A DNA stretch of 35,918 bases, taken from Bacteroidales bacterium. GTDB taxonomy: Bacteria > Bacteroidota > Bacteroidia > Bacteroidales > F082. Location: positions 1-35,918 of the forward strand of contig WFZS01000071.1 in assembly GCA_015489465.1 (NCBI GenBank), written 5' to 3'. This document shows, piece by piece, positions 612 to 30,198 of this stretch. Positions within the stretch are counted from its first letter, which is position 1. The number at the start of each line of letters is the position of its first letter. Both the position numbers and the translations under genes were made by a program. The notes below the pieces were generated by a model. The model saw only the letters and a program-made list of their open reading frames with translations. It did not search any database and was not told where the DNA came from.

Positions 612-641
612 GTGTTTAGTATTTAATCATCGTTGTCATAT

Positions 642-1949: not shown

Positions 1950-1951
1950 GA

Positions 1952-3301: not shown

Positions 3302-3317
3302 GACTTATTTGTAAATT

Positions 3318-8500: not shown

Positions 8501-8977
8501 TTACACTTCTATTTTCAAAAGTTTATTACCGTATTTGGAATAATGTAATTTAACTTTTCCTTTTTTCTCGGCTTCTTCAACTTCTTGTTTAGAAACCTCG
8601 AAAGTTGCATTATCCACATGAATCATAAAATTATTTTTTGACTTTTTACGTTTAAACCCCCAGGCATCAACAACGGAAATAACTTTTGACTTTTTTATCT
8701 TGCGCTCATCTTCATGTATTTCCAAAGGTTTTTCCAATATGATTTTTTTCCCTGATTTTATATCTTTCAACGAAACGCTTGCAACAATCCAAAACACGAA
8801 TAATGAGAATACAAAACCCAGTAACAATACCGAATACGGATCTATATTTACATGCCCTTTAAGTGCCAGAAAAAACACAACAGCGAAAAATGTAAATAGT
8901 AGAACGGCAAAAAATATACCCAGATAAATATCTTTTTTTAAAAGATTGATGTCTTCTTTTTCAAGAGGTTTTTCCAT
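8501..8977 (-). CDS. Small membrane protein of unknown function
   Basis: This 158-residue protein is not assigned to a named family. It has a short charged N-terminus and two hydrophobic segments (about residues 18-39 and 48-68) that form a membrane hairpin. A lysine-rich soluble domain of about 85 residues follows, containing the stretches VDAWGFKRKK and NATFEVSKQEVEEA, and ends in a basic beta-like segment. Both termini would be cytoplasmic by the positive-inside rule. It starts one base after the hydrolase gene ends and is followed 19 bases later by the dehydrogenase, so all three are probably made together. The soluble part could be a small beta-sheet domain. Confidence 0.75.
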   Translation of the reverse strand: MEKPLEKEDINLLKKDIYLGIFFAVLLFTFFAVVFFLALKGHVNIDPYSVLLLGFVFSLFVFWIVASVSLKDIKSGKKIILEKPLEIHEDERKIKKSKVISVVDAWGFKRKKSKNNFMIHVDNATFEVSKQEVEEAEKKGKVKLHYSKYGNKLLKIEV

Positions 8978-13700: not shown

Positions 13701-14212
13701 ATTTGGCTCTTTGTATTAATACCAAAGCACCTTTATCGGAAGAACATAACCAAGTTACGGTTCCTTTGTACCTTGACCGGGTTTCCGATGAAAATTACTC
13801 TTTAACATTTTCGGGAACGGAAAATCTTGAAAATACCGGTATAATTTTGGAGGATCTAAAAACAGGTTCCATGCAGGATATGAAAGAGAACCCCGTTTAT
13901 AATTTTACCTCCTCTCAAGGTGATAGTAAATCCCGTTTTTTGGTACACTTTTTAAGAAATGTTACGGGAATCCCCGATAATGAACCCATACCGGAAAATG
14001 TTAAAATCTATTCTTACGGCAAGGATGTTTATGTTAATTCCGTTTACGACGGTAAAGTGTTTATTTATAATATGCTGGGTGAAAATATTGCTAAAGCATC
14101 CGTTACAAATAACAAATTAAGGAAATTACATGTTGATCTTAACAACGCAATTGTTATTGTTAAAGTGATTTCCGGTAATTCCGTAACGGCAAAAACGGTT
14201 TTCTTACATTAA
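10778..14212 (+). CDS. Secreted multidomain protein with type IX sorting-like C-terminus
   Basis: The protein has 1144 residues. A signal peptide (MKKIYIFLTLIILSVTGYGQ) is followed by a beta-rich domain (about 22-220) starting LSAGDIAIFGVNTDNPDDF. Two fibronectin type III-like domains follow (about 225-325 and 337-450), each with an I-x-L-S-W core, then a lamin-tail-like domain (about 455-620) starting LIISEVADP. A beta-repeat stretch and a domain with GGWHLISPS come next. The last 70 residues (from 1075) contain KVFIYNMLGENI and end KTVFLH, the pattern of type IX secretion sorting domains. It is therefore probably exported through the outer membrane and attached to or released from the surface. 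No catalytic site is recognised; adhesion or scaffold roles are possible. It has its own promoter and stands alone. Confidence 0.85.
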   Translation: MKKIYIFLTLIILSVTGYGQTTLSAGDIAIFGVNTDNPDDFGFVLLVDIDAGTEIRFTDSGWKSDNTFRGNEGAVKYTAPTALPAGTEITYQGNSSDFTDDNDSYVGTNGFNLSASGDQVFAFQGPSNNPTFIFAVQTNSTAWQTDATSSNNSALPQGLTDGVNAVAVGSGSGSGDEYDNAAYDTTGTTSGSASEILSAISDNSNWLGNNSTRYNLADFDFDVGVGNPLNFTAVPATTDQINLSWSKNSDNDSVMIAWSSDGTFGTPVNGTVYKTGDPISGGGTVIYRNDGTSYSHTGLTQGTHYYYKAWSVNNSGTYSSGVEADTSTLKAEPSNHVANFTAGNSTSTSISLSWDDNDGSVAADGYLIKINKTGSFTTPVDGSPESDDTDVSDGAGEVNVNHGTQSYTWQNLDPNTTYYFIIYPYTNSGSNINYKTDGTVPTTSASTANVNLNLIISEVADPSDSTYARFVELYNLGSSTIDFSTDTWYLARQVNGGTFYSVQLSGSIPSGNTYVVAYSQSRFNNSYGFNPDQASGYINGNGDDGYFLYYGGDHTTGTLIDAYGVRDEDGTGKDWEYTNTKAVRLRSVTSPNTTWTASEWDIPSSASTGDMTPSAHNENVNWQGNTSSDWNTKGNNWSGAQGFIPDASFNVTVPQTSNQPHIDNSARSNNVSVNSNSELIIEPSASLTVYGNISVATSKNKTAGTLKVSSDNTGDASLIVKGSSTGPVTVQRYVQAGGWHLISPSTTGVTAQDLYIDSNHNAWLVEFDESGDTAGSWSYITDLSQSLTVGTGYSYWVDDQDTSYNIADFKGSLQTQDLTVTLQYTDSDHGWNLLGNPFSSALDFDKGTWDPNTVTSGFIYVWDDDYNGGDYRVSGTDLTDNIIPMGQGFFVEATSSGNFTIPAEARVHSTQDFWKKSKEEKNKPYIKIQLGGTGVANTVYIGFPDFGTDQRDYAGDARKLYSSATKPQLYAVENDLALCINTKAPLSEEHNQVTVPLYLDRVSDENYSLTFSGTENLENTGIILEDLKTGSMQDMKENPVYNFTSSQGDSKSRFLVHFLRNVTGIPDNEPIPENVKIYSYGKDVYVNSVYDGKVFIYNMLGENIAKASVTNNKLRKLHVDLNNAIVIVKVISGNSVTAKTVFLH

Positions 14213-14407: not shown

Positions 14408-16099
14408 TTAAAATTTCTTCTTCACAATATCGCTTTCCTTGTAGCCTATACGTTGTGTCATAACATAAAGGTATTTTCCCTTTGGAACTTTTATAGGTTC
14501 GTGATATACTTCCCAACCGGAATTTAAGTCGGGAGTAAAATCTTTATCACTTATTATGTAACCTATCGAAGCGCCTCTTGTGGGACATGTTAAAATGATT
14601 TTTCTTCCTTCTTTTTTTATTACCGCTTTTTTCGTTACAGGCTGAACTCCGCCAATCCACATATTCTGAACCAGTTGATTTTCGGAAATTGCTCCCAGGT
14701 CTCCCGTCTGTGCCAGAAAATCATCAAGAGCTTTACTTAATTCGGCAATTTTATCTTTATATTGAGGATCGTCTATAATGTTATGAACGTTATCAGGGTC
14801 AACCTTGCAATCATACAACTCTTCGGGAGTTTTATAAAGTCTGAACCAAAGGTTTTGCTCGGTATTTAATCTTCCCAGCTTATGCAACCTGAGAAGATCA
14901 TTCATCATATCTATATTTTTTCTGTAAGCAATATCTTTATAAAGAGGCCGTTCGGGATAATAGTTTCTTACGTAAAGGTATCTTCCGTCAAAAACAACCC
15001 TTATCCTGTCGGTAAACTCATCAAACCTGTCGGATGTCCCGAAAATGTATTTCCTTTCTTTTTTTGCTTTTTGAGGACCCATAAAGGCTTGACCTTGCAT
15101 ATAATCGGGAACCGGATATCCCGCAATAGAAAGTAATGTAGGAGCAAGATCAACAAATGAAATCAATTCTTTAACATGACCGTTTTCTATTTTTGATGGG
15201 TCCAATCCGTATTTTTTCTGATACTTTTCGGGAATTCTTACAATAAAAGGTACTTTTAGCCCCGACATGTAATGAAGACGTTTTCCGCGCGGCAACGGAC
15301 CACCGTGATCACTGAAAAAGAATATTATAGTGTTGTCGTAAAGTCCTAAATCTTTAAGTTTTTGTATTTTTTCACCTATCTGTTTATCAAGAGCTTCAAT
15401 ATTGGAATAGTTTCTTGCAACATCCCGCCTCACTATTGAATCGTCGGGATAATAAGACGGTAGAGGAACCTTATCGGGTGAAACGGTGAGAGGCAGATTC
15501 TTTCTTTTCCAAATCTGCGATTCGTGTGTAACGTTATGGTTATATACTGCAAACCAAGGCATCCCTCCGGGAGCATGAGTATAGTCGGCCTTTGTATTAT
15601 TTTCCGCCCAAGCGGTTACGGGAGCTGCAAATTGATAGTCTGTTTTTTGATTGTTGGTACAGTAATAACCGCTTATTCTCATATATTCCGAAAAGCATTT
15701 CACCTGCTCGGGGATTACCGCCGAATATTGAGGTACGGGATTTCCGTTAATGTCTTTTCCCATACCTACTTTTTTATATTTTCTTTTTCCCCACGACTGG
15801 ATATCAAGAGCCGTACGCATGTGCATGGTTCCTATGGAAGTAGGATACATACCGGTTATTATTGACGACCTGCTGGGGGCGCAAACACCTACAACGGCAT
15901 AAACATTATCAAAAACCAAACCTTCTTTAGCTAGCCGGTCAAGATTAGGAGTATGAGCCGTAGAGTCGCCATACATGGAAAGAGTCGGACTTATATCTTC
16001 ACATGTAAGCCATAAAATGTTCGGACGGTCATCTTTCTTTTGTCCAAAAGAATTAAACCAAAACAGAACTATTAAGGCTATAAAAACATACTTTTTCAT
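14408..16099 (-). CDS. Sulfatase, S1_8-like
   Basis: This is a type I sulfatase of 563 residues that removes sulfate esters from saccharides. A signal peptide (MKKYVFIALIVLFWFNSFGQ) sends it to the periplasm. The metal-binding start is NILWLTCEDISP, and the active-site Cys73 is in CAPSR, the signal for conversion to formylglycine. FFFSDHGG supplies later metal ligands. The wording around the active site (CAPSRSSIITGMYPTSIGT) resembles the S1_8 group, which includes enzymes acting on uronate-rich polysaccharides, but the substrate is not proven. It is the last of seven genes in the leftward operon, 8 bases after the previous sulfatase. The C-terminus ends in a lysine-rich tail. Confidence 0.9.
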   Translation of the reverse strand: MKKYVFIALIVLFWFNSFGQKKDDRPNILWLTCEDISPTLSMYGDSTAHTPNLDRLAKEGLVFDNVYAVVGVCAPSRSSIITGMYPTSIGTMHMRTALDIQSWGKRKYKKVGMGKDINGNPVPQYSAVIPEQVKCFSEYMRISGYYCTNNQKTDYQFAAPVTAWAENNTKADYTHAPGGMPWFAVYNHNVTHESQIWKRKNLPLTVSPDKVPLPSYYPDDSIVRRDVARNYSNIEALDKQIGEKIQKLKDLGLYDNTIIFFFSDHGGPLPRGKRLHYMSGLKVPFIVRIPEKYQKKYGLDPSKIENGHVKELISFVDLAPTLLSIAGYPVPDYMQGQAFMGPQKAKKERKYIFGTSDRFDEFTDRIRVVFDGRYLYVRNYYPERPLYKDIAYRKNIDMMNDLLRLHKLGRLNTEQNLWFRLYKTPEELYDCKVDPDNVHNIIDDPQYKDKIAELSKALDDFLAQTGDLGAISENQLVQNMWIGGVQPVTKKAVIKKEGRKIILTCPTRGASIGYIISDKDFTPDLNSGWEVYHEPIKVPKGKYLYVMTQRIGYKESDIVKKKF

Positions 16100-16107
16100 T
16101 TCCGGTA

Positions 16108-17520
16108 TTATTTAAGATTATATTTCCGCTGTGCTTTATGAAGTTCTTTACTCAAACTGTCAACTACCTTCTTATATTCGGGAAGTCCGGCAACATTTAC
16201 ATTTTCTTCGGGGTCTTTTTTGTGGTCGTACAACATACGGGCAAAAATTTTACCTTCTTTATTGGTAAACTCGGTATATCTGTACCTGTCCGTTTTAAAT
16301 GAATCTCCCGCTTTCCACCTGCTGAGTGCGTAATTCATTTTTTCAGGTTTTCCTTCTAAAATAGGAACAAGGCTTTTCCCTTGATTTTGTTCAAGTACGG
16401 GGATTCCCGCCAACTCCGACAATGTCGGATACACATCAACCATCTCCACAAGTGCATCCGACACCTTTCCTTTTAACTTTCCGGGCGCTATAACTATGAA
16501 AGGAACACGTAATGCAATGTCAAAGTTAGTATGTTTTGCCCATTCCTTATGTTCCCCAAGCTGCCAACCGTGGTCTCCCCAAAGGACAATAATCGTATTA
16601 TCGTAAAGTTTCAGTTTTTTCAGTTCGTCAATAAGAACTCCAACCAAACTGTCAATATAACTAACGGAAGCATAATATCCGTGTTTAAGCGTCAGCCTCA
16701 TCTCTTTATCTGTTATGTCGCCTTTTTTAGGAATACCGCGATAAGCCCTAAGCTCGCCCCATGAGCTTAATGCTATTTTCGGAACATCTTTGGGATAGAA
16801 ATAGTTGTCGGGTTCTTTTATATCATCTTTACCGTAAAGATCCCAAAAACGTTTAGGTGCAACAAAAGGGAGATGAGGACGGGCAAATCCTACGGCGAGG
16901 AAAAACGGTTGACCTGTTTTTTTGAAAATTTTAAGTTCTTTTACAGCGTTATTTAATGTTCTAACATCCAAAAAGGCTGTATCAGGAACACTGTCGGGAG
17001 TTATTTCATAAGGATATGAGCGTTTATATCCCGGTTCGGGGTGTTTATTGTATTCAAGGTTATCTTTGGTGTGATATTCAAACATGTTTTCGGCAGGGTA
17101 ATATTTACTCCACGAACGTTTTGAAGCATCGTGCTTACCGTGAATAACTTTACCAATTGATACGGTATAATATCCGTTTTCTTTAAAATGCTGACCCATT
17201 GTTATTGCTCCCGGAGTATCACGGTCTATTTCGGAAGCTGCCCTGGTAAACCTCGTCCTTGTAGGTCTGATTCCGGTATGCATACTTGCCCTTGAAGCAC
17301 CGCAAACGGGAACCTGGGCATACGCTTTGGTAAAAACAACACCTTCTTTGGCGAGTTTGTCAATATTCGGTGACTTTATTATTTTATTTCCATATACTCC
17401 CAATTCGGGTCTCAGGTCATCAATTGTTATAAACAAAACATTGGGTTTCTTGTTTTTTTGAGCAAAACAACCCTGCAGTGTTAATAAAACGGTTAACGTT
17501 ACTAATATTAATTTTTTCAT
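16108..17520 (-). CDS. Sulfatase, S1_7-like, with a CGASR active site
   Basis: This 470-residue type I sulfatase has a signal peptide; a Cys at residue 18 (TLQGC) could also be a lipidation site. The N-terminal ITIDDLRPELGVYGN and the later LWGDHGWQLGEHKEW fit the S1_7 group, which includes iduronate-2-sulfatase-like enzymes. Active-site Cys73 lies in CGASR, with Ala in place of the usual Pro; sulfatase-maturing radical SAM enzymes accept this form, so it is probably active. The HGYYASVSYIDS stretch is also typical. Its ATG overlaps the upstream sulfatase stop by 4 bases. The exact sulfate position removed is unknown. Confidence 0.9.
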   Translation of the reverse strand: MKKLILVTLTVLLTLQGCFAQKNKKPNVLFITIDDLRPELGVYGNKIIKSPNIDKLAKEGVVFTKAYAQVPVCGASRASMHTGIRPTRTRFTRAASEIDRDTPGAITMGQHFKENGYYTVSIGKVIHGKHDASKRSWSKYYPAENMFEYHTKDNLEYNKHPEPGYKRSYPYEITPDSVPDTAFLDVRTLNNAVKELKIFKKTGQPFFLAVGFARPHLPFVAPKRFWDLYGKDDIKEPDNYFYPKDVPKIALSSWGELRAYRGIPKKGDITDKEMRLTLKHGYYASVSYIDSLVGVLIDELKKLKLYDNTIIVLWGDHGWQLGEHKEWAKHTNFDIALRVPFIVIAPGKLKGKVSDALVEMVDVYPTLSELAGIPVLEQNQGKSLVPILEGKPEKMNYALSRWKAGDSFKTDRYRYTEFTNKEGKIFARMLYDHKKDPEENVNVAGLPEYKKVVDSLSKELHKAQRKYNLK

Positions 17521-18935
17521 TTACGTGAATTTTTAGGCTCAACGGCGTTTATTTCTTTTTTCCAATCATCAAGCTGTTTCAGTAATTTTTCAGCAAGTTT
17601 TTTATTTTCATCAGCAATATTGTCTTGTTCGTACGGATCTTTTTCAAGGTCGTAAAGTTCCGTTGTATTATCATCTAGATAGTTTATGAGTTTATACTTT
17701 CCTACTCTTATTGCAGAAGCATTATGGTCGCCTGTTGAATGAGGACGGGCACGCGGCGAGTGCCAATATAATGTTCTACCGGTTTCTTTTTTACCCTCCA
17801 TGAAGGGTTTTAAACTGATACCGTCAAGATGTTGTTTCGGCATCAACGGTAATCCGTTCAGGTCGAGAAGTGTGGGGTATAAATCCGTTGTTACGACTAC
17901 TTCATCAACATTTTTCTTTTTGTTGAACTCTTTATCATATATAATGAAAGGCACTTTTAAACCGCCTTCGTAAACATGACCTTTACCGGCTCTCAAAGGC
18001 AAATTGCTGGTTGCCAGAGGACGTTTATTACCGGCACCTCTATTTGAAAGTCCGCCGTGGTCGGATGTAAAAACAATTATTGTATTATCAAGAAGACCTT
18101 TGTCATCAAGTACTTTCATTATTTCTCCAACACTTTTATCCACGGTTTCAATCATTGCGGCATAAACCGCATTATCTTGATGTGTTTTTGTTTCACCGTC
18201 TTTTAAAATTATATCTGGACCTTCAAAAGTCATTGTTTTAAGTTTATCTCTGTATTTTTTAACAATACTGTCGGGAGCTTCAAAAGGAGTATGGACACCG
18301 TAATGGCAAAGCATGGCAAAAAAAGGCTTTCCGTGATGATCCATGTTTATGAATTCGATAGTTTCCTCGGTTAATCTGTCGGTAAGGTATTCTCCCGGTT
18401 TTCCACCGTCCAAGCCCACAATATCTTTATGTTTACCGGAAATTTTAGGATTACGGCTTTCGTTATAGGGATAAAAATAGGACTTGGGAGCACCGGCGGC
18501 ACAACCTCCTTTATTTATATCGTAACCTTTGTTTTGAGGCCAGTCTTCAGGTTTATGTCCGAGGTGCCATTTGCCTGCAAAAAATGTGTGATACCCGTTA
18601 TTTTTAAATGCCTGACCAATCGAAATATCAGTTGACGAAAGTGAATTGTTACCTCCGGGAATTTTATTTCTTGCCGGAAATTTTCCTGTCTGTATAGCAT
18701 ATCTCGAAGGAAGACAACGGGGATGGGCAACATAAGCATTATGAAACTCGACTCCCGATTCAGCCAATTTATCGATATTAGGTGTTTCATACAGCTTTGA
18801 TCCGGTATGAGTCAAGTCATGATAACCCAAGTCATCAATAACAATTACCACCACATTTTTCTTTTTTTGTGAAAAAGAGGCAGCTGTTGAAAACAACAGG
18901 ATTACCGTCAATAAAAACCTAAGGCTTTTTCTCAT
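17517..18935 (-). CDS. Sulfatase, arylsulfatase A / S1_16-like
   Basis: This type I sulfatase has 472 residues when started at the ATG at 18935, which gives a clean signal peptide (MRKSLRFLLTVILLFSTAAS). An in-frame TTG five codons upstream (18950) is less likely. The metal site begins IVIDDLGYHDL and the active-site Cys74 is in CLPSR. FTSDHGGLSNRGAGNKR and the later AGKGHVYEGGLKVPF are typical of the arylsulfatase A-like S1_16 group. KWHLGHKPEDWPQNKGYD is the conserved lysine-histidine stretch. It starts 15 bases after the sulfatase-GH10 fusion and overlaps the next sulfatase by 4 bases. It acts in the periplasm, probably on a terminal sugar sulfate. Confidence 0.88.
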   Translation of the reverse strand: MRKSLRFLLTVILLFSTAASFSQKKKNVVVIVIDDLGYHDLTHTGSKLYETPNIDKLAESGVEFHNAYVAHPRCLPSRYAIQTGKFPARNKIPGGNNSLSSTDISIGQAFKNNGYHTFFAGKWHLGHKPEDWPQNKGYDINKGGCAAGAPKSYFYPYNESRNPKISGKHKDIVGLDGGKPGEYLTDRLTEETIEFINMDHHGKPFFAMLCHYGVHTPFEAPDSIVKKYRDKLKTMTFEGPDIILKDGETKTHQDNAVYAAMIETVDKSVGEIMKVLDDKGLLDNTIIVFTSDHGGLSNRGAGNKRPLATSNLPLRAGKGHVYEGGLKVPFIIYDKEFNKKKNVDEVVVTTDLYPTLLDLNGLPLMPKQHLDGISLKPFMEGKKETGRTLYWHSPRARPHSTGDHNASAIRVGKYKLINYLDDNTTELYDLEKDPYEQDNIADENKKLAEKLLKQLDDWKKEINAVEPKNSRK

Positions 18936-18950
18936 ATTATATTTAATCAA

Positions 18951-21900
18951 CTACTTTACTTCTTTCATGTAAACATCATCAATCCAAGCGGGATTATCTC
19001 CGTTCAACCATTTATTTACGGCTATTTTTACAGTCTTATGATTTCCCGAATTAAATTTTATGGAAACCTTTTTATAATTATCATCCGAAGAAGTTACCAC
19101 TTTGTTTTTCTCTCCTTCCATCAGAACCACGAGTTTAACTTTTTCCCCGCCATATGATTTGAGCCATGCAGAAACCTCATAATCGGTATTTTTCTTAACA
19201 TTAACAAACTGGTTTGCACCCGATTTATCTGCCGCTATCATTAAACAACTCTCACCGCTATGCTGATTGCCGCCGAAATCGAGTTCAGTTTCACCGTAAT
19301 TGAGCCATGGTTTGATTTGTCCTTCAAAACCTCCGTTTTTAATCAAATTGTTTTTATCGTCAAATTCATTTACCGATTCGGGAATTTCAAAAGTAAGTTC
19401 CAGGTCGTCAGGATTTTCCAGCACTTTTTGAATAGCGTAATATGCCGGTTTGGCTCTTAATTTTTCATCAAAAATAAACCTGTAATTTCCTCTGTGTTTA
19501 TTATCAACAGGTCCGTCGTATAATCCCCAAGTATTGAAACCTACAACTCCCGTATTCCTTTTCTTTAACAACACTTTTAAAATATTTGCATAAGTAACGG
19601 CTTGCTCTTCAGCCATTTTTTTTGTAAACGCATCACTGTTTTTAAACGTATAATCAATTTCCGTTACATGAAACTCCAAACCGTTTGAGTGTGCCCAGTC
19701 AATCAAATCTTCGAGGTATTTCAAATCCTTTTTATTAAGAGCAACATTAACATCGGGACGTAAGTGTGCTTGCCAACCTATTCCGTCAACCCTCAAACCT
19801 TTTTTCTTGAGATATAAAACCGTTTTTTTAACTTTTTCCCAAGCAGCAGGCTCCATACGTACATGCTGGTTGTAAATCAGTTTAATATCCGGAGCATACT
19901 TATTTGCTATTTCAAATGCTTTTACGATATAAATGGGAATACTGTCTTCGTTTAGCCCTATTTTCAACCATGGATTTTCCCACTGGTCCGTTCCGGGTTT
20001 AGGTCCGAACCACGTTCCGTCGGCATTAACGGTTTCATTTACAACATCCATCCATTTAATCGTGGGGTTCCCGTTAAACCTTTTACATTGACGTGTCATA
20101 TACTCTTCCATAACCTGTTCGAGTTCTTCAGGTGTTCTGTTATCTTCCAGAGCCCATTTTGATGCCTGCGGACTTACGGGACCGTGAAGACGCATCACCA
20201 TATTATGATTTTTGGCAAACCTCACAAGGTTATCAATTCTATCCCAACGCCAAATACCGGGTTCGGGATGAACATATGATTGTTTTGCGGCATTTTCGGG
20301 AGTTGTGTACGAAAATTGCTCGGCAAGGAGGTCCAGGGCTTTTTTATCATAGCGGTAGCTTACGGTTGCTCCGACGTACACCGTGCCGGGTTTAAAGTTT
20401 TTGGCAACCAATTCTCTCAAAGGGGTTCCTTTGGGTTTGCCCGGTACTTCATTCGCCATAAATGTCAATGATGCATCCGGTACCAAATCTGTTCCTACCT
20501 GACTGTCGAGAAAATCGTGTAACTTTTTTTCAAGCTCGGCCGCAACTTCTTTATATTTTTTGTTTTTTACAAGATTTTTTGTTTCCAGCGGGTCGGCTTG
20601 ATAATCGTATAATTCTCTACCGATAATATTTTTATCTTTTCTCGGTTTGGTTGAAACATAATCTTCATACCACTCGGTATATCTGTACCTGTCCGTTCTA
20701 ATGGAGTATCCCATACCGCCTTTGGGTCTGGGCCACTGTGAAACAGCATATTTTTTATCAATATCTTTACCTTCAAGAAGCGGAACAAGACTTTGCCCTT
20801 GCAATAAAGTATCTTTTTCCAATCCGGCAAGGTCACACAACGTGGGATAAATATCCAAACTTTCTACCGGTATTGAAGTCTCCCCCGGTTTTTTTGAAGG
20901 GTCTATTATTATTAAAGGTAAATGTGTGGCCTGTTCAAAATTGGTATGCTTTGTCCAAAGTCCGTGGTCACCCAGATGAAAACCATGATCACCCCAAAGA
21001 ACAATAATGGTTTTATCGAGTAAATTTTGTTTTTCAAGTTCGTTGATAACTTTTCCTATTTGAGCATCAATATATGATGTTGCCGCATAATAACCGTGTA
21101 TTAATTCCTTTTGTTTTTCGGGATCCAATTCACCGTATTCATCAATTGTTTTGGGAATATCCGTATAAGATCTCAATTCCGGATTGTTATGATATGCAAC
21201 GTCTGGACTTCCTTTTGCATGCCTTTGAAATTTGGCAAGTTTTATATCTTTTTCATCGTATAAATCCCAATATTTTTTAGGAGCGGTAAAAGGCAAGTGC
21301 GGTTTTTTGAAACCGACCATCAAAAGAAAAGGTTTATTGCTTTTTGCAAATCGATCAATCTTTTTTATTGCATCATTTGCAATCCAGCCGTCAAAATAAT
21401 AATCATCCGGAACGTCGGCTTTATCTGTGGAGGGTCTAAAGTTTTTTCTTAAATATTTTTCCAGTTGTTTACCTTTAAGACCCTTCAGTTCACCTAATTT
21501 CTTAGCAAAATTATATTCCGCTTTTGCTTGTTTTGATTGATATTCTCCCAAAACAGGATAAGGACTTGTATGCGGAAGTTTGTAAGGAGGTTTATAAGGA
21601 ATAGTCCATGACCGTCCGTCATAAGTTCTTTTATCAACGCTTCTGGGATCGAATATTTTACCCGTTGCGCATGTAATATATCCGTTTTGTTTAAAGTATT
21701 GAGGAAGCGTAACAACATTGGGGTTCTTGCTTCTTATATATGTTTTAAGATCCCAAACTTTTGTCCTGTCGGGACGCCAACCCGTTAACATACTGGCACG
21801 TGAAGGTCCGCAAACAGCTTGTTGTGTATAAGCGTTTTTAAAAACAAAACCTTTGGAAGCCAATTTATCGATATTGGGAGTTTTAGCAACCACGTCACCG

Positions 21901-22028
21901 TATGCTCCAATGGTCGGTTTAAGATCATCTACAGCTATAAAAAGAATATTTTTTTTGTTTTGAGCTGATAATGATAATGTTAAAATTAACGATAGTAATA
22001 AAAAAGAATATTTTTTCATAGACTGCAT
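18951..22028 (-). CDS. Sulfatase-GH10-carbohydrate-binding fusion
   Basis: This 1025-residue secreted protein has three parts. Residues 25-515 are an S1_7-like sulfatase with VDDLKP and Cys73 in CGPSR, and the metal stretch LWGDHGFHLGDHG. Residues about 540-870 are a divergent GH10 (xylanase-family) barrel: acid/base Glu665 in WMDVVNE and nucleophile Glu790 in FHVTEID, plus WQAHLRPDV and NTWGLYDG. Residues about 893-1025 form a beta-sandwich resembling CBM4/9 modules, starting NLIKNGGFEG. One enzyme could thus desulfate and cut the same chain, a sulfated xylan or another glycan. A start at an internal ATG (22019) is equally possible. The sulfatase part closely resembles the next gene upstream, at 22100. 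I see no frameshift or stop at the junction, so the fusion is genuine. Confidence 0.88.
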   Translation of the reverse strand: MQSMKKYSFLLLSLILTLSLSAQNKKNILFIAVDDLKPTIGAYGDVVAKTPNIDKLASKGFVFKNAYTQQAVCGPSRASMLTGWRPDRTKVWDLKTYIRSKNPNVVTLPQYFKQNGYITCATGKIFDPRSVDKRTYDGRSWTIPYKPPYKLPHTSPYPVLGEYQSKQAKAEYNFAKKLGELKGLKGKQLEKYLRKNFRPSTDKADVPDDYYFDGWIANDAIKKIDRFAKSNKPFLLMVGFKKPHLPFTAPKKYWDLYDEKDIKLAKFQRHAKGSPDVAYHNNPELRSYTDIPKTIDEYGELDPEKQKELIHGYYAATSYIDAQIGKVINELEKQNLLDKTIIVLWGDHGFHLGDHGLWTKHTNFEQATHLPLIIIDPSKKPGETSIPVESLDIYPTLCDLAGLEKDTLLQGQSLVPLLEGKDIDKKYAVSQWPRPKGGMGYSIRTDRYRYTEWYEDYVSTKPRKDKNIIGRELYDYQADPLETKNLVKNKKYKEVAAELEKKLHDFLDSQVGTDLVPDASLTFMANEVPGKPKGTPLRELVAKNFKPGTVYVGATVSYRYDKKALDLLAEQFSYTTPENAAKQSYVHPEPGIWRWDRIDNLVRFAKNHNMVMRLHGPVSPQASKWALEDNRTPEELEQVMEEYMTRQCKRFNGNPTIKWMDVVNETVNADGTWFGPKPGTDQWENPWLKIGLNEDSIPIYIVKAFEIANKYAPDIKLIYNQHVRMEPAAWEKVKKTVLYLKKKGLRVDGIGWQAHLRPDVNVALNKKDLKYLEDLIDWAHSNGLEFHVTEIDYTFKNSDAFTKKMAEEQAVTYANILKVLLKKRNTGVVGFNTWGLYDGPVDNKHRGNYRFIFDEKLRAKPAYYAIQKVLENPDDLELTFEIPESVNEFDDKNNLIKNGGFEGQIKPWLNYGETELDFGGNQHSGESCLMIAADKSGANQFVNVKKNTDYEVSAWLKSYGGEKVKLVVLMEGEKNKVVTSSDDNYKKVSIKFNSGNHKTVKIAVNKWLNGDNPAWIDDVYMKEVK

Positions 22029-22099: not shown

Positions 22100-23677
22100 T
22101 TATTTTACCTTATCTGTTCCTATTTGACTTTTAAGAAAATCATGCATCAATTTTTGCATTTCCCTAACTACCTCTTTATATTCGGGATCATTTACATAAT
22201 TATGAGTTTCCAACGGATCTTTTTCATAATCGTAAAGCTCACGGGCAGTAGGTTTTTTACCGTTTAACGGTTGAGTACTTCTGTAATCTTTATACCACTC
22301 CGTATATCTGTATCTTTCGGTTCTTACGGTATATCCCATCCCGTTATATTTTCTGTAAGCAGGCCATTGCGAAACGGCATATTCCATATCAGTCCTTTTT
22401 CCGTCCAACAACGGTTCAAGACTTTTACCTTGTAAAGTAGGTTCGGGTTTCAAACCTGCAAGTTCGCAAAGTGTAGGATAAATATCCAAAGTTTCAACGG
22501 GAATTGTTGATTTTCCAGGCTTTTTACCCGGATCGTATATAATCAAAGGCAACCTGGTAGCCTGTTCAAAATTGGTATGCTTACACCACAATCCGTGATC
22601 GCCCAAATGCCAGCCGTGGTCTCCCCATAAAACAACTATGGTATTTTCATCAAGTCCAAGATCTTTTAAAGCTTTAAGAACCTTTCCCACTTGTGCATCA
22701 ACATAGGAAGTTGCAGCATAATAACCGTGAACTAAACGAGGTTGAATTTCCATACTCACATGACCCTGTTTATCCACAACATAACGCGGAATATCGGTAT
22801 AACTCCTTAGTTCGCCGTTGGTATGATAAGCTACACCGGGACCGTTAACGGAATGTTTTTGCCATTTTGCAACAGGCACTTTATTTTCATCGTACAAATC
22901 CCAATATTTGGAAGGAGCAACAAACGGAAGGTGAGGGCGTTTGAATCCTACCATCAACATGAACGGCTTATTGTCCTTTGAAAGTTTTTTCAGCTTGTTG
23001 ATGGCATCTAAAGCGATGGCTCCGTCCTCGTATGCGTTATCAGGCACATCGGCTTTTTCGGTAGAGGGTTTGTAATGCTTACGCATATACCTGTCTATTT
23101 TTCCGCGTTTCATACCGGCGGCTTTCAATGAGTCTGAAACTCTTTTGTAAAGTTTTAAATATCCGGGAGATTGGTAATATCCTAATTTAGGCGGTTTATT
23201 GTCCGCATAAGTCTTTAGCTGATAAGGATATTTATAGGGTTCGGACCATGAACGTCCGTCATAAGTTTCCTTATCCACACTTCGCGGATCGAAAATTTTA
23301 CCTGTTCCCAATACAGTATAACCGTTCTCTTTAAAATATTGCGGAAGTGTAACGACATCGGGGTTTTTATCCCTTATTAATGTTTTTAAATCCCAAACTT
23401 TTGTCCTGTCGGGTCTCCACCCTGTCAGCATACTGGCTCTTGAAGGTCCGCAAACAGCTTGCTGGGTATAAGCGTTTAAAAAAACAAAACCTTTATCGGC
23501 AAGTTTATCGATATTGGGAGTTCTGGCAAAATCATCACCGTAAGCTTTAATGGTCGGTTTTAAATCGTCAACAGCTATAAAAAGAACATTCTTTTTTTGC
23601 TGTGCAACAGTGTTAAACGAAATACCCGATAGCAATGCCAAAGAAATGACAAACGTTAAAACCTTTTGTATTTTCAT
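22100..23677 (-). CDS. Sulfatase, S1_7-like (paralogue of the fusion's N-terminus)
   Basis: This type I sulfatase of 525 residues has a signal peptide ending near FNTVAQ. Active-site Cys76 lies in CGPSR, followed by ASMLTGWRPDRTKVWDLK, which is the same in the fusion protein. The metal motif is LWGDHGWHLGDHGLW. Similarity to the fusion runs from the N-terminus to the last residues (HDFLKSQIGTDKVK against HDFLDSQVGTDLVP), so the two genes look like a tandem duplication. S1_7 enzymes commonly act on 2-O-sulfate of uronates or related sugars; the actual substrate is unknown. A 71-base gap with no promoter separates it from the fusion gene. Confidence 0.9.
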   Translation of the reverse strand: MKIQKVLTFVISLALLSGISFNTVAQQKKNVLFIAVDDLKPTIKAYGDDFARTPNIDKLADKGFVFLNAYTQQAVCGPSRASMLTGWRPDRTKVWDLKTLIRDKNPDVVTLPQYFKENGYTVLGTGKIFDPRSVDKETYDGRSWSEPYKYPYQLKTYADNKPPKLGYYQSPGYLKLYKRVSDSLKAAGMKRGKIDRYMRKHYKPSTEKADVPDNAYEDGAIALDAINKLKKLSKDNKPFMLMVGFKRPHLPFVAPSKYWDLYDENKVPVAKWQKHSVNGPGVAYHTNGELRSYTDIPRYVVDKQGHVSMEIQPRLVHGYYAATSYVDAQVGKVLKALKDLGLDENTIVVLWGDHGWHLGDHGLWCKHTNFEQATRLPLIIYDPGKKPGKSTIPVETLDIYPTLCELAGLKPEPTLQGKSLEPLLDGKRTDMEYAVSQWPAYRKYNGMGYTVRTERYRYTEWYKDYRSTQPLNGKKPTARELYDYEKDPLETHNYVNDPEYKEVVREMQKLMHDFLKSQIGTDKVK

Positions 23678-23772: not shown

Positions 23773-25398
23773 CTAATTTATATTACCGAAATCTTTATCG
23801 GTTATTTCCCTGAACTCTTCTAATGAAGCGGTATCACCAACAGCTTTCATAACACTGTCAAGTTTATGTTTCATCATGTTAAAAACATCTTTATAGGCAG
23901 GGTCGTAAGCCACATTATTGAGTTCGTGCGGATCTTTTTCAAGATCGTAAAGTTCCCATTGGTCAATGTTATAGTAAAAATGAGCCAATTTATATCTATC
24001 GGTTCTTATTCCGTAATGGGGTTGAACATGGTGCCAGAAAGGCCATTCGTAATAATGCATGTAAACGGCATCCCTCTTAACTTTTGATTTTCCGGTTTCG
24101 GCGATATCTTTAAAACTTCTGCCTTGAACCTCTTTCGGAACATCCAGTCCTGCAAAATCAACAAGTGTGGGTGCAAAGTCAACATTGGAAAGCAAATGAT
24201 TATCTGTAGTACCGGCTTTTATGGCTTTCGGATAACGCATCAGGAAAGGCATTCTGAAAGATTCTTCATAAATAAACCTTTTATCGAAGAAACCGTGATC
24301 GCCCAAGTAAAATCCCTGGTCACCCGTGTAAACAACTATAGTGTTATCCGCCAATCCGTTTTTATCCAGGAAATCAAGTACTCTACCAACGTTATCGTCA
24401 ACGGATTTTACACAAGCAAGGTAATCTTTTATAAATCTTTGATATTTCCATTTACGTGCTTCTTCAACGGTTTTACAACCGGGAGGCATCCAATTTTCAC
24501 CGGGATTGTTTCCGTAACTATACCATTTTTCCAAAGCTCTTCCTTTTAACCCTTTTGGCGGTTTCAGTTTCATATCTTTCCGGTTAAGAAAATCCATTGT
24601 CATCCAAGTGTCGCCTGCGGTTTTTTCGCGGGTTTTGTAATCGTCATTAAAAGTTTCGGGATAAGGAAGTTCTGCGTCGGGATACATGTTTGCATATTTG
24701 GCTCTTGTCGTATCGGGGAACCAATTACGGTGAGGTGCCTTATAATGCAAAAGCATTAGGAAAGGTTTGCCTGAATCTTTAACTCTTTCCAACCAGCCTA
24801 TAGCCGAGTCGGTAGTGATATTTGTAGCATAACCTTTTATAACTTTTTGTTGTCCGTTGTAATTATAAACGGGATTGTAATAATAACCTTGTTGTCCCGG
24901 GTTGTTATGATACATAAAATAATCAAATCCCCTCGGTTCCGTTCCAAGATGCCATTTACCCAACATGGCGGTTGTATATCCCGCATCATGTAATTCTTGA
25001 GGGAATGTCCACTGGTTAGGATTAAAATGACCGCCATGTTCATTTTTATAATAACCGTTTACATGGCTGTATTTACCGGTAACGATAATAGCCCTGGAAG
25101 GTCCGCAAATGGGGTTTGCACAATAAACATTATCAAACCTTTTACCTTCTTTGGCAATTCTGTCGATATTAGGTGTTGTAAAATACTTGGCATACCTTTT
25201 ATTGTATGCGGTAATCGCTTGAGTGGTGTGGTCGTCACTCATGATAAAAAGGATGTTGGGACGTTTTGCCTCAACCGTCTCTTTTTTCGTTTCTTTTTTA
25301 TTTTCCTTGTTTTTTTGCGAACAGGAAACGGAGAATAATCCTGCAGCGATCACAACTGCAACGGCGATCAATAAGGTTTTTGATTTAAAAAAATTCAT
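23773..25398 (-). CDS. Sulfatase, S1_11-like (N-acetylglucosamine-6-sulfatase group), lipoprotein
   Basis: This 541-residue sulfatase has a hydrophobic N-terminus ending in LFSVSC; Cys26 is a likely lipidation site, followed by a lysine/glutamate-rich linker. The metal motif is FIMSDDHTTQAI, and active-site Cys98 lies in CGPSR. The stretch KWHLGTEPRGFDYF and the later YTGDQGFYLGDHGFFDKR resemble the S1_11 group, which includes N-acetylglucosamine-6-sulfatases. It is the second gene of the operon, 12 bases after the GH3 gene. Anchoring to a membrane sets it apart from its neighbours, most of which have ordinary signal peptides. The substrate could be another 6-O-sulfated sugar. Confidence 0.88.
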   Translation of the reverse strand: MNFFKSKTLLIAVAVVIAAGLFSVSCSQKNKENKKETKKETVEAKRPNILFIMSDDHTTQAITAYNKRYAKYFTTPNIDRIAKEGKRFDNVYCANPICGPSRAIIVTGKYSHVNGYYKNEHGGHFNPNQWTFPQELHDAGYTTAMLGKWHLGTEPRGFDYFMYHNNPGQQGYYYNPVYNYNGQQKVIKGYATNITTDSAIGWLERVKDSGKPFLMLLHYKAPHRNWFPDTTRAKYANMYPDAELPYPETFNDDYKTREKTAGDTWMTMDFLNRKDMKLKPPKGLKGRALEKWYSYGNNPGENWMPPGCKTVEEARKWKYQRFIKDYLACVKSVDDNVGRVLDFLDKNGLADNTIVVYTGDQGFYLGDHGFFDKRFIYEESFRMPFLMRYPKAIKAGTTDNHLLSNVDFAPTLVDFAGLDVPKEVQGRSFKDIAETGKSKVKRDAVYMHYYEWPFWHHVQPHYGIRTDRYKLAHFYYNIDQWELYDLEKDPHELNNVAYDPAYKDVFNMMKHKLDSVMKAVGDTASLEEFREITDKDFGNIN

Positions 25399-25410: not shown

Positions 25411-27726
25411 TTAATTTACGGTTAATTTTGTTTTTAAAAGGTCTTTATTTTTTGATGATTTCCCTACCATTACAGTAAAAGTACCGGGTTCAACAACATA
25501 ATTCATATTTACATCATAAAAAGCCAGTTTAGAAGCGGGGAGTGTAAATTTGACGGTTTTGGTTTCCCCCTTTTTCAAGCTGATTCTTTTATAATCTTTT
25601 AACTCTTTTACGGGTCTTGTGGCAGATGAATAATCATCTCTGATGTATAGTTGAACAATTTCATCACCATCAAAATTTCCCGTGTTAGAAATTTTTACCG
25701 AAACGGTTACGGTATCATTTGCCGATATTGTATTTTTATCAAGTTGAAGATCGGAATATTTAAAAGTTGTATAACTCAAACCTTCTCCGAAAGCCCAAAG
25801 AGGCTCACCGGGAATATCTATATACGGGTGAAAATATGAAGAAGGTTTGTAATTATAAAAATTATTCAACTGTCCGGTGCTATAAGGAATAGTAACTGTA
25901 AGTTTTCCGGAAGGATTTACATCTCCTTTTATAACTTCAGCTATTGCCCTGCCTCCGAAATCCCCGGGTTCCCATGCTTCGATAATAGCGGGAATATTTT
26001 CTTTAATCCAAGGTTCGCTTAATGGTCTTCCGTTAACAAAAACCACTACCACATTTTTGTTATTTGCATATATACCTTTTATAAGCTCCAATTGATTGCC
26101 CATCAGGTTTAAAGAACCCCTGTCAATATTTTCACCGCAATTATTCTCACCCTTATCGTATCTTAACGAATTTGAGCCCACAACAACCACAACAGCATCA
26201 TAATCACCTGCTTTTTCTATAGGTTTCTTTATAAGCTCATTATCGGGATGAAACAAACTTTCGCCGCTGTTGATAAAATCCACTTGCGATTTTTTAAAAA
26301 TATTTTTTACACCTTCGTAAACAGTTATAACATTTTCTTCCGGTTGTTTATATGCCCAGTCACCTAATATCCTTTGGTTGTTGGCATTCGGCCCGGTAAC
26401 AAGAATCTTTTTCGCATTTTTTAACGGTAAAAAGTTGTTTTCGTTTTTCAATAATATTATTCCTTCGCGAGCAGCTCTTAACGCAGTTTGTTGATGTTTT
26501 TTACTGAAAAGAACCTTTTTTTCCCGTTTCTCGTCAACATAGGGATTTTCAAATAATCCAAGCATAAACTTGGCTTTCAAAATTTTACTTACCGCCCTGT
26601 CAACATCTTCTTCCGGAACTTGACCTTCGCGAACCAGTTTAGCCAAAGGCTTTAAAAAACCGGGTCCGTGCATATGCATGTCCATTCCGGCGGTTACCGC
26701 CAGTTTTACAGCCTCCTCTTGTGATTTTGCCACATGATGAAGTGTGTGAATTCTTTCGATATCCATCCAGTCGGAAACGACAAATCCTTTAAACCCCCAC
26801 TCTTTTCTCAAAATATCCGTCAAAAGGTGTTTGTTCATATGTGCAGGTATTCCGGAAACTTCATTATGAGCGGCCATAAATGTATAGACGCCGGCTTCCA
26901 CCTGAGCTTTGTACGGAGGCAGCCATATTTCGCGCAACTGTCTTTCGGAAACATCTATCGGTGCGGCATTTGTTCCGTTGTAAGGTTCGCCGCCGCCAAG
27001 AAAGTGTTTTGCACATGCAAGAATATTATCTTTTCCGAAATTGCCTTGATAGCCTTTGGTAAATGCAACACCCATTCTGGAAATCAGATAAGGATCTTCG
27101 CCGAAAGTCTCTCCTGTTCTTCCCCAGCGCGGGTCCCTGGCAACCTCAACGTTAGGGGAAAATGTCCAGTGCATTCCGGTAGCTCTAACTTCTTGTGCCG
27201 TTTCTTTTGCCACTTCATACAGAAGGTCATCATCCCATGTTGACGATAGAGATAATTGTGTGGGATATACCGTAGCTCCGCTGATAAAAGCCTGTCCGTG
27301 TATGGCGTCAATACCTATCAGCAAAGGTATTTTCAACCTTGATTGCATAGCAAGCTTTTGCAACTCATTGGCTTCTTTCAAACTTTTAACATGTAAATAA
27401 GAGCCTATCTCTCCTCTCTTTGTCATCTCCATCATATCCCCGGGAGTAATTCCGGGGTAAAGACTGTACTGATCGTTTGATTTATCCGATTTTCCTTTTA
27501 AATGCTCCCTTGATTTTTTCAAATGCTCTATGGAAACATATTGACACATCTGCCCGATTTTTTCTTCCGGTGTCATTCTGGACATCAGGTCTTTAACACG
27601 GACATCAACAGGCAATTCAGGGTTTTGATAAGGTAATTTTTTTTGTGCTTTTACCGTAACGCTTCCAAAAAGAAAAATAAATGGAAAAATTATGAAAGCT
27701 ATTGAACGTCCAATATGTTTTACCAT
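25411..27726 (-). CDS. GH3 family beta-glycosidase (BglX-like)
   Basis: This 771-residue exported glycosidase has the normal length for BglX-type GH3 enzymes: a signal peptide (to about residue 28), a TIM barrel with KHFLGGGEPYNGTN (residues 240-253) and the nucleophile Asp319 in VVSDW, a second alpha/beta domain, and a C-terminal fibronectin-III-like domain that supplies VTVSVKISNTGNFDGDEIVQL. It removes single beta-linked sugars such as glucose or xylose from chain ends, retaining configuration. It is the first gene of the sulfatase operon, with a perfect -7 box about 94 bases upstream. Beside a GH10 module, a beta-xylosidase role is plausible, but residues do not decide between glucose and xylose. 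Confidence 0.9.
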   Translation of the reverse strand: MVKHIGRSIAFIIFPFIFLFGSVTVKAQKKLPYQNPELPVDVRVKDLMSRMTPEEKIGQMCQYVSIEHLKKSREHLKGKSDKSNDQYSLYPGITPGDMMEMTKRGEIGSYLHVKSLKEANELQKLAMQSRLKIPLLIGIDAIHGQAFISGATVYPTQLSLSSTWDDDLLYEVAKETAQEVRATGMHWTFSPNVEVARDPRWGRTGETFGEDPYLISRMGVAFTKGYQGNFGKDNILACAKHFLGGGEPYNGTNAAPIDVSERQLREIWLPPYKAQVEAGVYTFMAAHNEVSGIPAHMNKHLLTDILRKEWGFKGFVVSDWMDIERIHTLHHVAKSQEEAVKLAVTAGMDMHMHGPGFLKPLAKLVREGQVPEEDVDRAVSKILKAKFMLGLFENPYVDEKREKKVLFSKKHQQTALRAAREGIILLKNENNFLPLKNAKKILVTGPNANNQRILGDWAYKQPEENVITVYEGVKNIFKKSQVDFINSGESLFHPDNELIKKPIEKAGDYDAVVVVVGSNSLRYDKGENNCGENIDRGSLNLMGNQLELIKGIYANNKNVVVVFVNGRPLSEPWIKENIPAIIEAWEPGDFGGRAIAEVIKGDVNPSGKLTVTIPYSTGQLNNFYNYKPSSYFHPYIDIPGEPLWAFGEGLSYTTFKYSDLQLDKNTISANDTVTVSVKISNTGNFDGDEIVQLYIRDDYSSATRPVKELKDYKRISLKKGETKTVKFTLPASKLAFYDVNMNYVVEPGTFTVMVGKSSKNKDLLKTKLTVN

Positions 27727-27898: not shown

Positions 27899-28534
27899 CT
27901 ATTCCAAAAAGCTAACTACTCCCGTGGTATGATCATACATTGCTCCTACAATGTCAATCTCTTTATTTTTATACATCCGGTATAAAACGGCGCTTTGACT
28001 TTTAATATCCTCCAACGCAAGTTCAACATTTTTGCGGGCAACAGCATCAATAAATTCCGGATTTTGAGAATTGTCATATGTCATTCCGGCATCCACTTTG
28101 GCAACCGCAAGTTTTATAGGCTTTAAAGCTGCCGTAAGATTTCCCAGTTTTACATCATCAACGGCACCTTTTACGGCACCGCATGAGGTATGCCCTAACA
28201 CTACAATTAATTTTGAACCCGTTACCGCACAAGCATATTCCATACTTCCCAAAATATCCCGGTTTACTATATTTCCGGCAATTCTGGTAATGAACAAATC
28301 ACCGATTCCCTGATCAAATATTATTGACGGCATAACCCTTGAATCTATACATCCCAAAACTATTGCAAAAGGATGTTGTGAGTCTATCGTTTCTTTAATA
28401 TGCCAACTGTGATCCCTTTCGATTGTATTATTTTCAATAAATCTTTTATTACCTTCTTTTAACATCTCCAAAGCCAAAGAAGGGGTCATTTTACTTAAAA
28501 TCTCTTTATTTTTAACTTTATCGTGAAAGTCCAT
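27899..28534 (-). CDS. Beta-class carbonic anhydrase
   Basis: This 211-residue cytoplasmic enzyme interconverts carbon dioxide and bicarbonate. Zinc ligands are visible as Cys62, His115 and Cys118 in GCIDSR and GHTSCG, with the catalytic Asp64-Arg66 pair. Length is normal for the family. Its ATG overlaps the stop codon of the SulP gene by one base, so the two are translated together. This pairing is well known: SulP transporters linked or fused to carbonic anhydrase are thought to bring in bicarbonate, for biosynthetic carboxylations or pH control. It lies 172 bases from the sulfatase operon promoter gene, in the same direction, but is separated by that operon's own promoter. Confidence 0.95.
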   Translation of the reverse strand: MDFHDKVKNKEILSKMTPSLALEMLKEGNKRFIENNTIERDHSWHIKETIDSQHPFAIVLGCIDSRVMPSIIFDQGIGDLFITRIAGNIVNRDILGSMEYACAVTGSKLIVVLGHTSCGAVKGAVDDVKLGNLTAALKPIKLAVAKVDAGMTYDNSQNPEFIDAVARKNVELALEDIKSQSAVLYRMYKNKEIDIVGAMYDHTTGVVSFLE

Positions 28535-30198
28535 TATTTATAATTTTTTAAATAATCCGATATTTCATCGTAATTATTGAAAATCTCATCTTCATTTATC
28601 AAATCGGGGATGATATCTATTTTTTCAAACATTATCCTGGGCTGTTCTTTTATTTTGTACAACAGCACTTTTTTGCCTTTAGTTTTTAATTCCAATACAG
28701 CTTCTTCCATGGCATACATTCCGCTTTGGTCAACATAATCAACCTTTTCCATGTTAAAAATCACTATCTCGGATTTTTCAGGTATTGATTTTATAAATTC
28801 TTTAAAGCCGGCAATCATCCCGAAAAACAAAGCTCCGTCAATATGTTTAATATAAACTTTATCGCCCAATGAGTTTACTATTTTCCTTTCTTCCTCAGAA
28901 AGATTTTCGATATCCGACAGCGATATAACCTTACTGCCTCCTTCAACCATATCGGCTGTTTTTTTCATAAAAACAAAAGACGCCAGTACCATACCCGCCG
29001 CTACGGCAACCAACAGGTCAACAAACACCGTTAAAAGAAGTACCACTATCATTATAACGGCATCCGAAACGGGAACGGATTTAATATGTTTCAATCCTTT
29101 GTAATCTATTATACCCAAACCAACGGTTAACAAAATACCTGCAAGAACGGCATTTGGTATTTCTCCCACCAACGACCCCAGACCAAGAAGTATAAATGTT
29201 AAAAGTATTCCCGCGAAAACTCCGGAAAGCCTGGTTTTACCACCCGATTTAACATTAATAACGGTACGCATTGTAGCTCCCGCACCGGGTAATCCGCCCA
29301 CTATACCTGCACCTATATTACCTATCCCTTGTCCTATAAGCTCTTTATTACTGTTATGTTTTGTTTTGGTAATGTTATCGGCAACAACGGATGTCAGTAA
29401 CGAATCAATAGCGCCCAAAACAGCCAAAGTAAAAGCATACTCCAAAATTAAAACCACCGTTTTATAGTCAGTAAAAACCGGTATAAAATCAAGGTGAAGT
29501 TTAGGCAATCCCGTAGGAAGTTCTCCATTGGAATTCAATTTTAAAATTAGATTTCCCGGAACAAAAAAGTAAACTAACAACGAAACTACTATCAAAGCTA
29601 CCAAAGTAGCGGGCACCTTTTTTGTTATGTAGGGAAATCCGTAAATAATGGCAACGGTAAGCAACGCGGCGCCAAAAGAATAGATATTTAAAAGTTCGGG
29701 GATTTGATGCAAAGCCGATATTGTTCCGAAAGCACCTCCCGAGGGGCTTACCGCACCGATAAAAGGAAAAATTTGAGTGATAACTATGATAAGACCTATT
29801 CCGCTCATAAATCCCGAAATCACCGGATAAGGTATATATTTAATATATTTTCCGACTTTTAAAACTCCGAGCAATACTTGTATTAATCCGGTTAAAACAA
29901 ATGCGGCAACTATTACAGGCATGGCTTTTTCAAGACTTCCCGTAATTTTTATAACCTCTATAATCATAACTGCGGAAACAACCGTCATCGGAGCTGTAGG
30001 TCCCGATATTTGCACTTTGGTTCCTCCGAAAACAGATGCTAAAATGCCAAGTGCTATTGCACCGTATAAACCCGCTATAGCTCCCAGTTCCGTTTGCTCG
30101 CCGAAAGCCAAAGCCAAAGGTAAAGCTACGATACCTGCCGTAATGCCTCCGAAAAGGTCTCCTTTAATGTTTGAAAACAAACCCGAAACTTTTTTCAT
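28534..30198 (-). CDS. SulP family anion transporter with STAS domain
   Basis: This 554-residue inner-membrane protein has the SulP fold: many hydrophobic segments in the first 400 residues, including GGITAGIVALPLALAFG, and a C-terminal STAS domain (about 440-550) with VDYVDQSGMYAMEEA. The family moves sulfate, bicarbonate or other anions, commonly with sodium or protons. Direct overlap with a carbonic anhydrase gene argues for bicarbonate uptake. Nearness to sulfatases could suggest sulfate, but that operon has a separate promoter and makes sulfate in the periplasm, where another system may take it up. A perfect -7 box precedes the gene. Confidence 0.92.
   Translation of the reverse strand: MKKVSGLFSNIKGDLFGGITAGIVALPLALAFGEQTELGAIAGLYGAIALGILASVFGGTKVQISGPTAPMTVVSAVMIIEVIKITGSLEKAMPVIVAAFVLTGLIQVLLGVLKVGKYIKYIPYPVISGFMSGIGLIIVITQIFPFIGAVSPSGGAFGTISALHQIPELLNIYSFGAALLTVAIIYGFPYITKKVPATLVALIVVSLLVYFFVPGNLILKLNSNGELPTGLPKLHLDFIPVFTDYKTVVLILEYAFTLAVLGAIDSLLTSVVADNITKTKHNSNKELIGQGIGNIGAGIVGGLPGAGATMRTVINVKSGGKTRLSGVFAGILLTFILLGLGSLVGEIPNAVLAGILLTVGLGIIDYKGLKHIKSVPVSDAVIMIVVLLLTVFVDLLVAVAAGMVLASFVFMKKTADMVEGGSKVISLSDIENLSEEERKIVNSLGDKVYIKHIDGALFFGMIAGFKEFIKSIPEKSEIVIFNMEKVDYVDQSGMYAMEEAVLELKTKGKKVLLYKIKEQPRIMFEKIDIIPDLINEDEIFNNYDEISDYLKNYK

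Follow-up and report, generated by a model that had tools for sequence, protein, structure and literature searches.

A single gene of a bacterium from the order Bacteroidales raises the question of why a sulfatase, a GH10 enzyme and a binding module should be joined in one protein, and which polysaccharide such a protein would attack. The gene lies in a stretch of 35,918 nucleotides (contig WFZS01000071.1, assembly GCA_015489465.1), the whole of which was analyzed and is called the window here. The gene and its parts are as follows.

18951..22028, minus strand: fusion gene, S1_7-like sulfatase, GH10 and CBM_4_9, 1025 aa (from the ORF, Pfam and full-length homologues)
21963..22028, minus strand: signal peptide-like N-terminal stretch MQSMKKYSFLLLSLILTLSLSA, aa 1-22, without a lipobox Cys (by sequence inspection only)
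20514..21953, minus strand: sulfatase module, aa 26-505 (PF00884 and PF16347; nearest solved relative 6HHM)
21810..21812, minus strand: Cys73 of CGPSR, predicted formylglycine precursor (C in 81 of 83 S1_7-like relatives)
21648..21650, minus strand: Asp127 in GKIFD, where 6HHM and iduronate-2-sulfatase have the His of GKVYH or GKVFH (alignments)
20424..20495, minus strand: inter-module linker, aa 512-535, about 100 residues shorter than in most flavobacterial-type fusions
19413..20423, minus strand: GH10 module, aa 536-872 (PF00331; model match to xylanase 10B, 3nj3)
20154..20192, minus strand: rebuilt loop RLHGPVSPQASKW, aa 613-625, replacing the canonical HTLVWHxQ, with its Trp-His lost
20034..20036, minus strand: Glu665, GH10 acid/base in VVNE (alignment)
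19659..19661, minus strand: Glu790, GH10 nucleophile in HVTE (alignment)
19008..19352, minus strand: CBM_4_9 module, aa 893-1007 (Pfam; beta-rich in the predicted model)

The triple fusion in a single ORF, first pointed out in an earlier note on this DNA, is real. The reading frame begins with ATG and has no internal stop, and each of the three modules scores above its own Pfam cut-off: Sulfatase (PF00884) at residues 26-402 (E 1.9e-49) with SGSH_C (PF16347) at 353-505, Glyco_hydro_10 (PF00331) at 549-868 (E 1.3e-47; 163 bits against a cut-off of 22.1) and CBM_4_9 (PF02018) at 893-1007 (41.3 bits against 25.9). One scan of genome contigs, together with genome searches, yielded 14 further fused homologues, of which 13 are full-length or nearly so and one (L024) is truncated. 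Misassembly and a chance reading frame are ruled out because the fused state is kept in these 14 loci from other genomes. The protein is probably periplasmic, given that no T9SS tail was found on it and that its N terminus, though signal peptide-like, has no lipobox. A structure model of the whole protein has a mean pLDDT of 67.9 and a pTM of 0.46, too low for reading the domain arrangement or the geometry of the sulfatase active site; its GH10 part is better.

The sulfatase module had been labeled S1_7-like, and fairly so. Its best PDB matches by sequence are 6HHM and iduronate-2-sulfatases, the latter being another near relative, and 6HHM is also the best solved relative by predicted fold, with 34% identity in the fold alignment. 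This structure is P18_S1_7, the S1_7 ulvan sulfatase of Formosa agariphila, which takes the 2-O sulfate off xylose in ulvan; reviews concur on the sugar and disagree on endo versus exo action (PMC9096561; PMC8360166). Subfamily S1_7 also includes enzymes for other sugars, among them one for kappa-carrageenan 4S (PMC9096561). Unlike the fusion, P18_S1_7 is a single module, carries His at the position of Asp127 and belongs to an ulvan pathway.

The signature of sulfatase family S1 is present in the fused module, which has Cys73-G-P-S-R and conserves D34, D35, D347, H348, K124, H244 and K360. Position 127 is Asp in 32 and His in 50 of the 83 S1_7-like relatives, and the same Asp is carried by a stand-alone sulfatase next to the fusion gene (22100-23677). 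Since Asp is common to so many of these sequences, Asp127 is probably functional, and what the His does in catalysis may be accomplished in another way. The replacement of a catalytic His throughout this clade also means that the specificity of the sulfatase may differ from that of 6HHM.

Membership of the second module in GH10 rests on its profile match, its pair of catalytic Glu residues and a GH10 xylanase fold (Z 36). The model aligns with xylanase 10B (3nj3) at a Z of 36.3 and an rmsd of 2.6 over 313 residues, and its nearest neighbors by fold are xylanases, including one with bound xylobiose. The positions TPxN..K, Q.H and NxW are retained alongside both Glu residues. The best sequence match to any solved GH10 reaches only about 94 bits. 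Thermotoga xylanase 10B (1VBR, 3NJ3) has the fold and the catalytic Glu pair in common with the fusion GH10 but differs in its canonical HTLVWH loop, in having no sulfatase and in a sequence that is only about 30% identical.

The HxxxWHxQ motif is usual in xylanases and is no requirement for GH10 membership; the loop region of HTLVWHxQ lines the -1/-2 subsites. In the fusion, the typical motif is absent after strand 3 and RLHGPVSPQ stands there instead. All 21 members of this GH10 clade have RLHxPxxPQxSxW in place of HTLVWHxQ, with R, H, P, P, Q, S and W of the rebuilt loop invariant and the first His and the Gln of the canonical motif retained. With changes at the -1/-2 subsites, the clade may recognize sugar or sulfate in another way, and the lack of the canonical Trp-His may give it a specificity different from that of textbook xylanases. 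A second GH10 of the same clade, lipoprotein-like and 43% identical, is encoded on another contig of the window's genome (C78; L014:8726-12689), where its neighbors are a GDSL esterase and a beta-helix protein with a T9SS tail; it is possibly another part of the fusion's pathway.

The claim that the catalytic residues of both parts are intact is thus correct for Cys73, Glu665 and Glu790, all of which are in place, and has to be qualified for position 127 of the sulfatase, where Asp stands for His, and for the GH10 loop without Trp-His. Whether the sulfatase could be matured in its own host also bears on activity. No anSME (TIGR03942, SPASM) was recognized in the window's genome, even though several sulfatases are encoded there. 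The genome has two FGE-domain (PF03781) genes, located beside PorP/SprF-like and MurF-like genes, and these look like the gliding genes GldK and GldJ (names assigned by inspection). An FGE-domain gene is present at one of the relatives' fusion loci (L039). Gene absences in the window's genome are not proof, because the assembly is a draft in 209 contigs that is 98% complete. The expectation that both activities are likely is reasonable but unproven, given the clade-wide substitutions in both modules and the lack of a recognized maturase in the fusion's own genome.

Genetic context supplies further clues to the substrate. The fusion gene belongs to a run of genes that extends on one strand from a GH3 to an S1_8-like sulfatase, with gaps of -4 to 95 bases. 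The neighbors are these.

27899..30198, minus strand: carbonic anhydrase and SulP sulfate permease, upstream of the run and related to it by same-strand position only (Pfam)
25411..27726, minus strand: GH3, nearest solved relative a beta-xylosidase (7ZB3)
23773..25398, minus strand: sulfatase, nearest solved structures GlcNAc-6-sulfatase 5G2V and other exo-sulfatases
22100..23677, minus strand: stand-alone sulfatase, S1_7-like, with 66% identity to the fused one and grouping with type A fused sulfatases (type A is defined below)
17517..18950, minus strand: sulfatase, nearest solved relative S1_16 (9FO1)
16108..17520, minus strand: third S1_7-like sulfatase (6HHM best)
14408..16099, minus strand: S1_8-like sulfatase (9BB9 best)

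A SusC/SusD pair, the mark of a polysaccharide utilization locus (PUL), was not found on the window's contig by Pfam; the SusD genes that were found sit on other contigs. Elsewhere in the window, a protein of 1144 aa with fn3 and lamin-tail domains is encoded beside the sulfatase run on the opposite strand (10778-14212), a run of LuxE-like, AMP-binding, MFS and HATPase genes occupies 3-5968, and the ORFs at 1952-3301, 8501-8977 and 34288-35826 have no Pfam match at E 0.001.

The fused homologues fall into two types. In type A (the window, L016 in genome G142, L021, L022 and L024), the CBM is present and the linker is short. Type B, the flavobacterial type (L023, L029, L030, L031, L033, L034, L039, L048 and L083), has no CBM and, in every case except L023, about 100 extra residues between the modules. 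Sulfatase and GH10 also occur as separate genes of one locus in three Flavobacteriaceae (L037, L075 and L076) and one member of the Melioribacteraceae (L038). Carriers of such split loci include the cultured species Snuella sedimenti and Aurantibacter aestuarii. The GH3 and the sulfatase types of the window recur in many relatives' loci. The fusion is rare in the genomes sampled, being present in 2 of 173 from the window's own family, with the window included, and among 395 from its class in the window only. SusC and SusD adjoin the fusion in L021, a type A locus from a MAG labeled Chlorobiota, and in G142. The latter genome is complete in one contig, and its type A fusion is surrounded by a hybrid two-component regulator, SusC, SusD, GH3, sulfatases, a BD-FAE-type esterase, a GDSL esterase and a T9SS-tailed GH5. 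Mobile or viral carriage of the fusion was considered and rejected: no confirmed viral contig matched the GH10 clade, no plasmid record contained the fusion and the window has no tRNA.

The note had implied that a sulfatase joined to GH10 is a rarity, which does not hold. Krueger et al. 2019 (PMC6794258) had already reported that a "sulfatase domain-containing GH10", accompanied by GH3 and two sulfatases, recurs among North Sea flavobacteria as a sulfated-xylan locus. The window's locus has this pattern of a sulfatase-containing GH10, GH3 and at least two more sulfatases; the likeness consists in sulfatase and GH10 within one gene and in the adjoining GH3 and further sulfatases. Three type B loci (L031, L039 and L048), each with the fusion, GH3 and two sulfatases, match it as well. 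The window's fusion differs from the type of Krueger et al. in its C-terminal CBM_4_9, in lacking the insert of about 100 aa and in a sulfatase of a different lineage, and its locus differs in lying outside the Flavobacteriaceae, in having five further sulfatases and in having no SusCD on the contig. The architecture is therefore already known, and the CBM-bearing type of the window, probably fused separately, is a variant of it. As the note had supposed, no biochemical test of the architecture, in either type, emerged from the open-access literature. A characterized marine fusion of a sulfatase with another glycosidase does exist in P36 of F. agariphila (GH78 rhamnosidase and S1_25 sulfatase, 6HR5; PMC8360166), which is unlike the window's fusion in GH family, sulfatase subfamily and sugar.

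A sulfated beta-xylan locus, PUL136, is known from Formosa sp. Hel3_A1_48, and SusC/D-like proteins of a sulfated-xylan PUL were reported in bloom metaproteomes by Kappelmann et al. (PMC6298971). The type B locus L048 comes from MAG AB_MB169, a name listed for an Aurantivirga MAG in which a xylan PUL is predicted (PMC10108472). In all eight type B genomes with enough contig, the retrieved sequence flanking the fusion contains a xylose isomerase, the sole one found in that genome, which argues for a xylose backbone. In the two type B loci that were scanned, this gene scores 673 and 676 bits (cut-off 533) and adjoins an XylB-like kinase and a sodium symporter. Xylose isomerase also occurs elsewhere in six other genomes. 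In three of the type B loci (L029, L033 and L083), GH10 genes of a more distant type occur in the vicinity of both the fusion and the xylose isomerase cluster. Neither the window's genome (98% complete) nor its complete relative G142 yielded a xylose isomerase, and no xylulokinase XylB exceeded the cut-off in the window's genome. Because G142 is a single contig, type A loci can evidently occur without xylose isomerase.

A sulfated xylan or xylose-containing polysaccharide, as originally suggested for this enzyme, remains the best-supported substrate when the GH10 and S1_7-like relatives, the beta-xylosidase-like GH3, the relatives' esterases and the xylose isomerase and xylulokinase-like genes are taken into account. 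More specifically, an acetylated, sulfated beta-xylan is favored by the role of 6HHM, the type B flanks with xylose isomerase and the content of the G142 locus together. We consider it reasonably probable that the fusion is a periplasmic three-module enzyme that desulfates and cuts fragments of sulfated beta-xylan. Cys73 would be converted to formylglycine, and the S1_7-like module would then strip sulfate from xylose, most likely at the 2-O position by analogy with 6HHM. Next, the GH10 module would cleave beta-1,4-xylosyl bonds of the same chain with retention, using Glu665 as acid/base and Glu790 as nucleophile, and the CBM would keep the chain close to both active sites. The beta-xylosidase-like GH3 and the five further sulfatases nearby would finish the oligosaccharides. 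Location, substrate, sulfate position, order of action and the activity of each module are all what we infer from these comparisons.

Other readings of the same evidence have to be weighed. The target might be ulvan or another mixed polymer whose backbone consists only partly of sulfated xylose, so that Xyl2S is desulfated and GH10 cuts at xylose. The closest characterized sulfatase and an S1_8 enzyme do act on ulvan Xyl2S (PMC8360166; PMC9096561), and the window has both S1_7-like and S1_8-like genes. However, neither an ulvan lyase nor a GH78 is among the Pfam matches of the window and the relatives' annotated loci, which have xylan-type esterases and GH3 instead. In general, moreover, GH10 enzymes require runs of beta-1,4 xylose, and we regard an ulvan-like target as distinctly unlikely. 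Less improbable, though still doubtful, is that the GH10 clade has some other specificity (for another pentose, for xylan with methylation or branches, or for exo or reducing-end action on short chains) and that the sulfated sugar is not plain xylose-2-sulfate. The loop common to the 21 clade members, Asp127 in place of His, the low score against solved GH10 structures and the missing xylose isomerase of the window's genome and G142 would all be explained in this way, but the preserved Glu pair with TPxN..K, Q.H and NxW, the xylose isomerase beside the flavobacterial fusions and in the six other genomes and the beta-xylosidase-like GH3 of the locus speak against it.

Finally, one catalytic module might work while the other has become a binding or spacer domain, as the active-site substitutions in both and the unrecognized maturase could suggest. 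Degenerate modules usually lose core residues first, whereas here the core active-site residues vary little or not at all among the aligned fusions, all core residues of the sulfatase are retained and the stand-alone neighbor carries the same Asp. A single working module is therefore very improbable, and a bifunctional enzyme for sulfated beta-xylan remains the preferred reading.

In the sulfatase trees, the fused domains of types A and B form two separate groups. The minimum number of changes is two in a quick tree and in the bootstraps of a careful one, with one origin in 0 of 200 bootstraps. A tree in which the fused sulfatases of both types are held together is rejected (p-AU 0.0068), the tested group having been chosen with a first tree already in view. 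GH10 modules from the fused genes cluster with those from the flavobacterial split genes, and the remaining GH10s of the set fall outside this cluster. As the sulfatases of types A and B belong to two lineages, two origins of the fusion are probable. A single origin is thus rejected by the constrained tree, although a later exchange of sulfatases could mimic two origins. Either history would imply selection for keeping both activities together. The stand-alone sulfatase at 22100-23677 is probably an old duplicate of the fusion's sulfatase half. A bolder combination, which we put forward as an unlikely possibility, is that the fusion originated two or more times and signals that desulfation and cleavage are obligatorily coupled on a single sulfated-xylan chain, that the rebuilt -1/-2 loop of this GH10 subfamily accepts sulfated xylose and that the sulfatase uses Asp for His in catalysis.

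New here, relative to the known architecture, are the two sulfatase lineages, the split-gene loci in four genomes, the adjoining xylose isomerase (8 of 8) and the clade-wide active-site changes in both modules. Gene loci and expressed SusC/D proteins have led to the view that bloom bacteria commonly feed on sulfated xylans (PMC6794258; PMC6298971), and no characterized enzyme that cuts sulfated xylan was found in the open-access literature. Two apparently independent fusions of a sulfatase with one GH10 clade, a split version and a xylose isomerase beside eight of them single out a definite enzyme whose substrate can be clearly predicted. If confirmed, it would offer a tool to detect sulfated xylan in algae and a test of whether desulfation has to come before cleavage. 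The relatives, being fused or split and with or without the CBM, provide built-in controls. In the split Melioribacteraceae locus (L038:4614-10248), a T9SS-tailed GH10 is located between two S1_7-like sulfatases.
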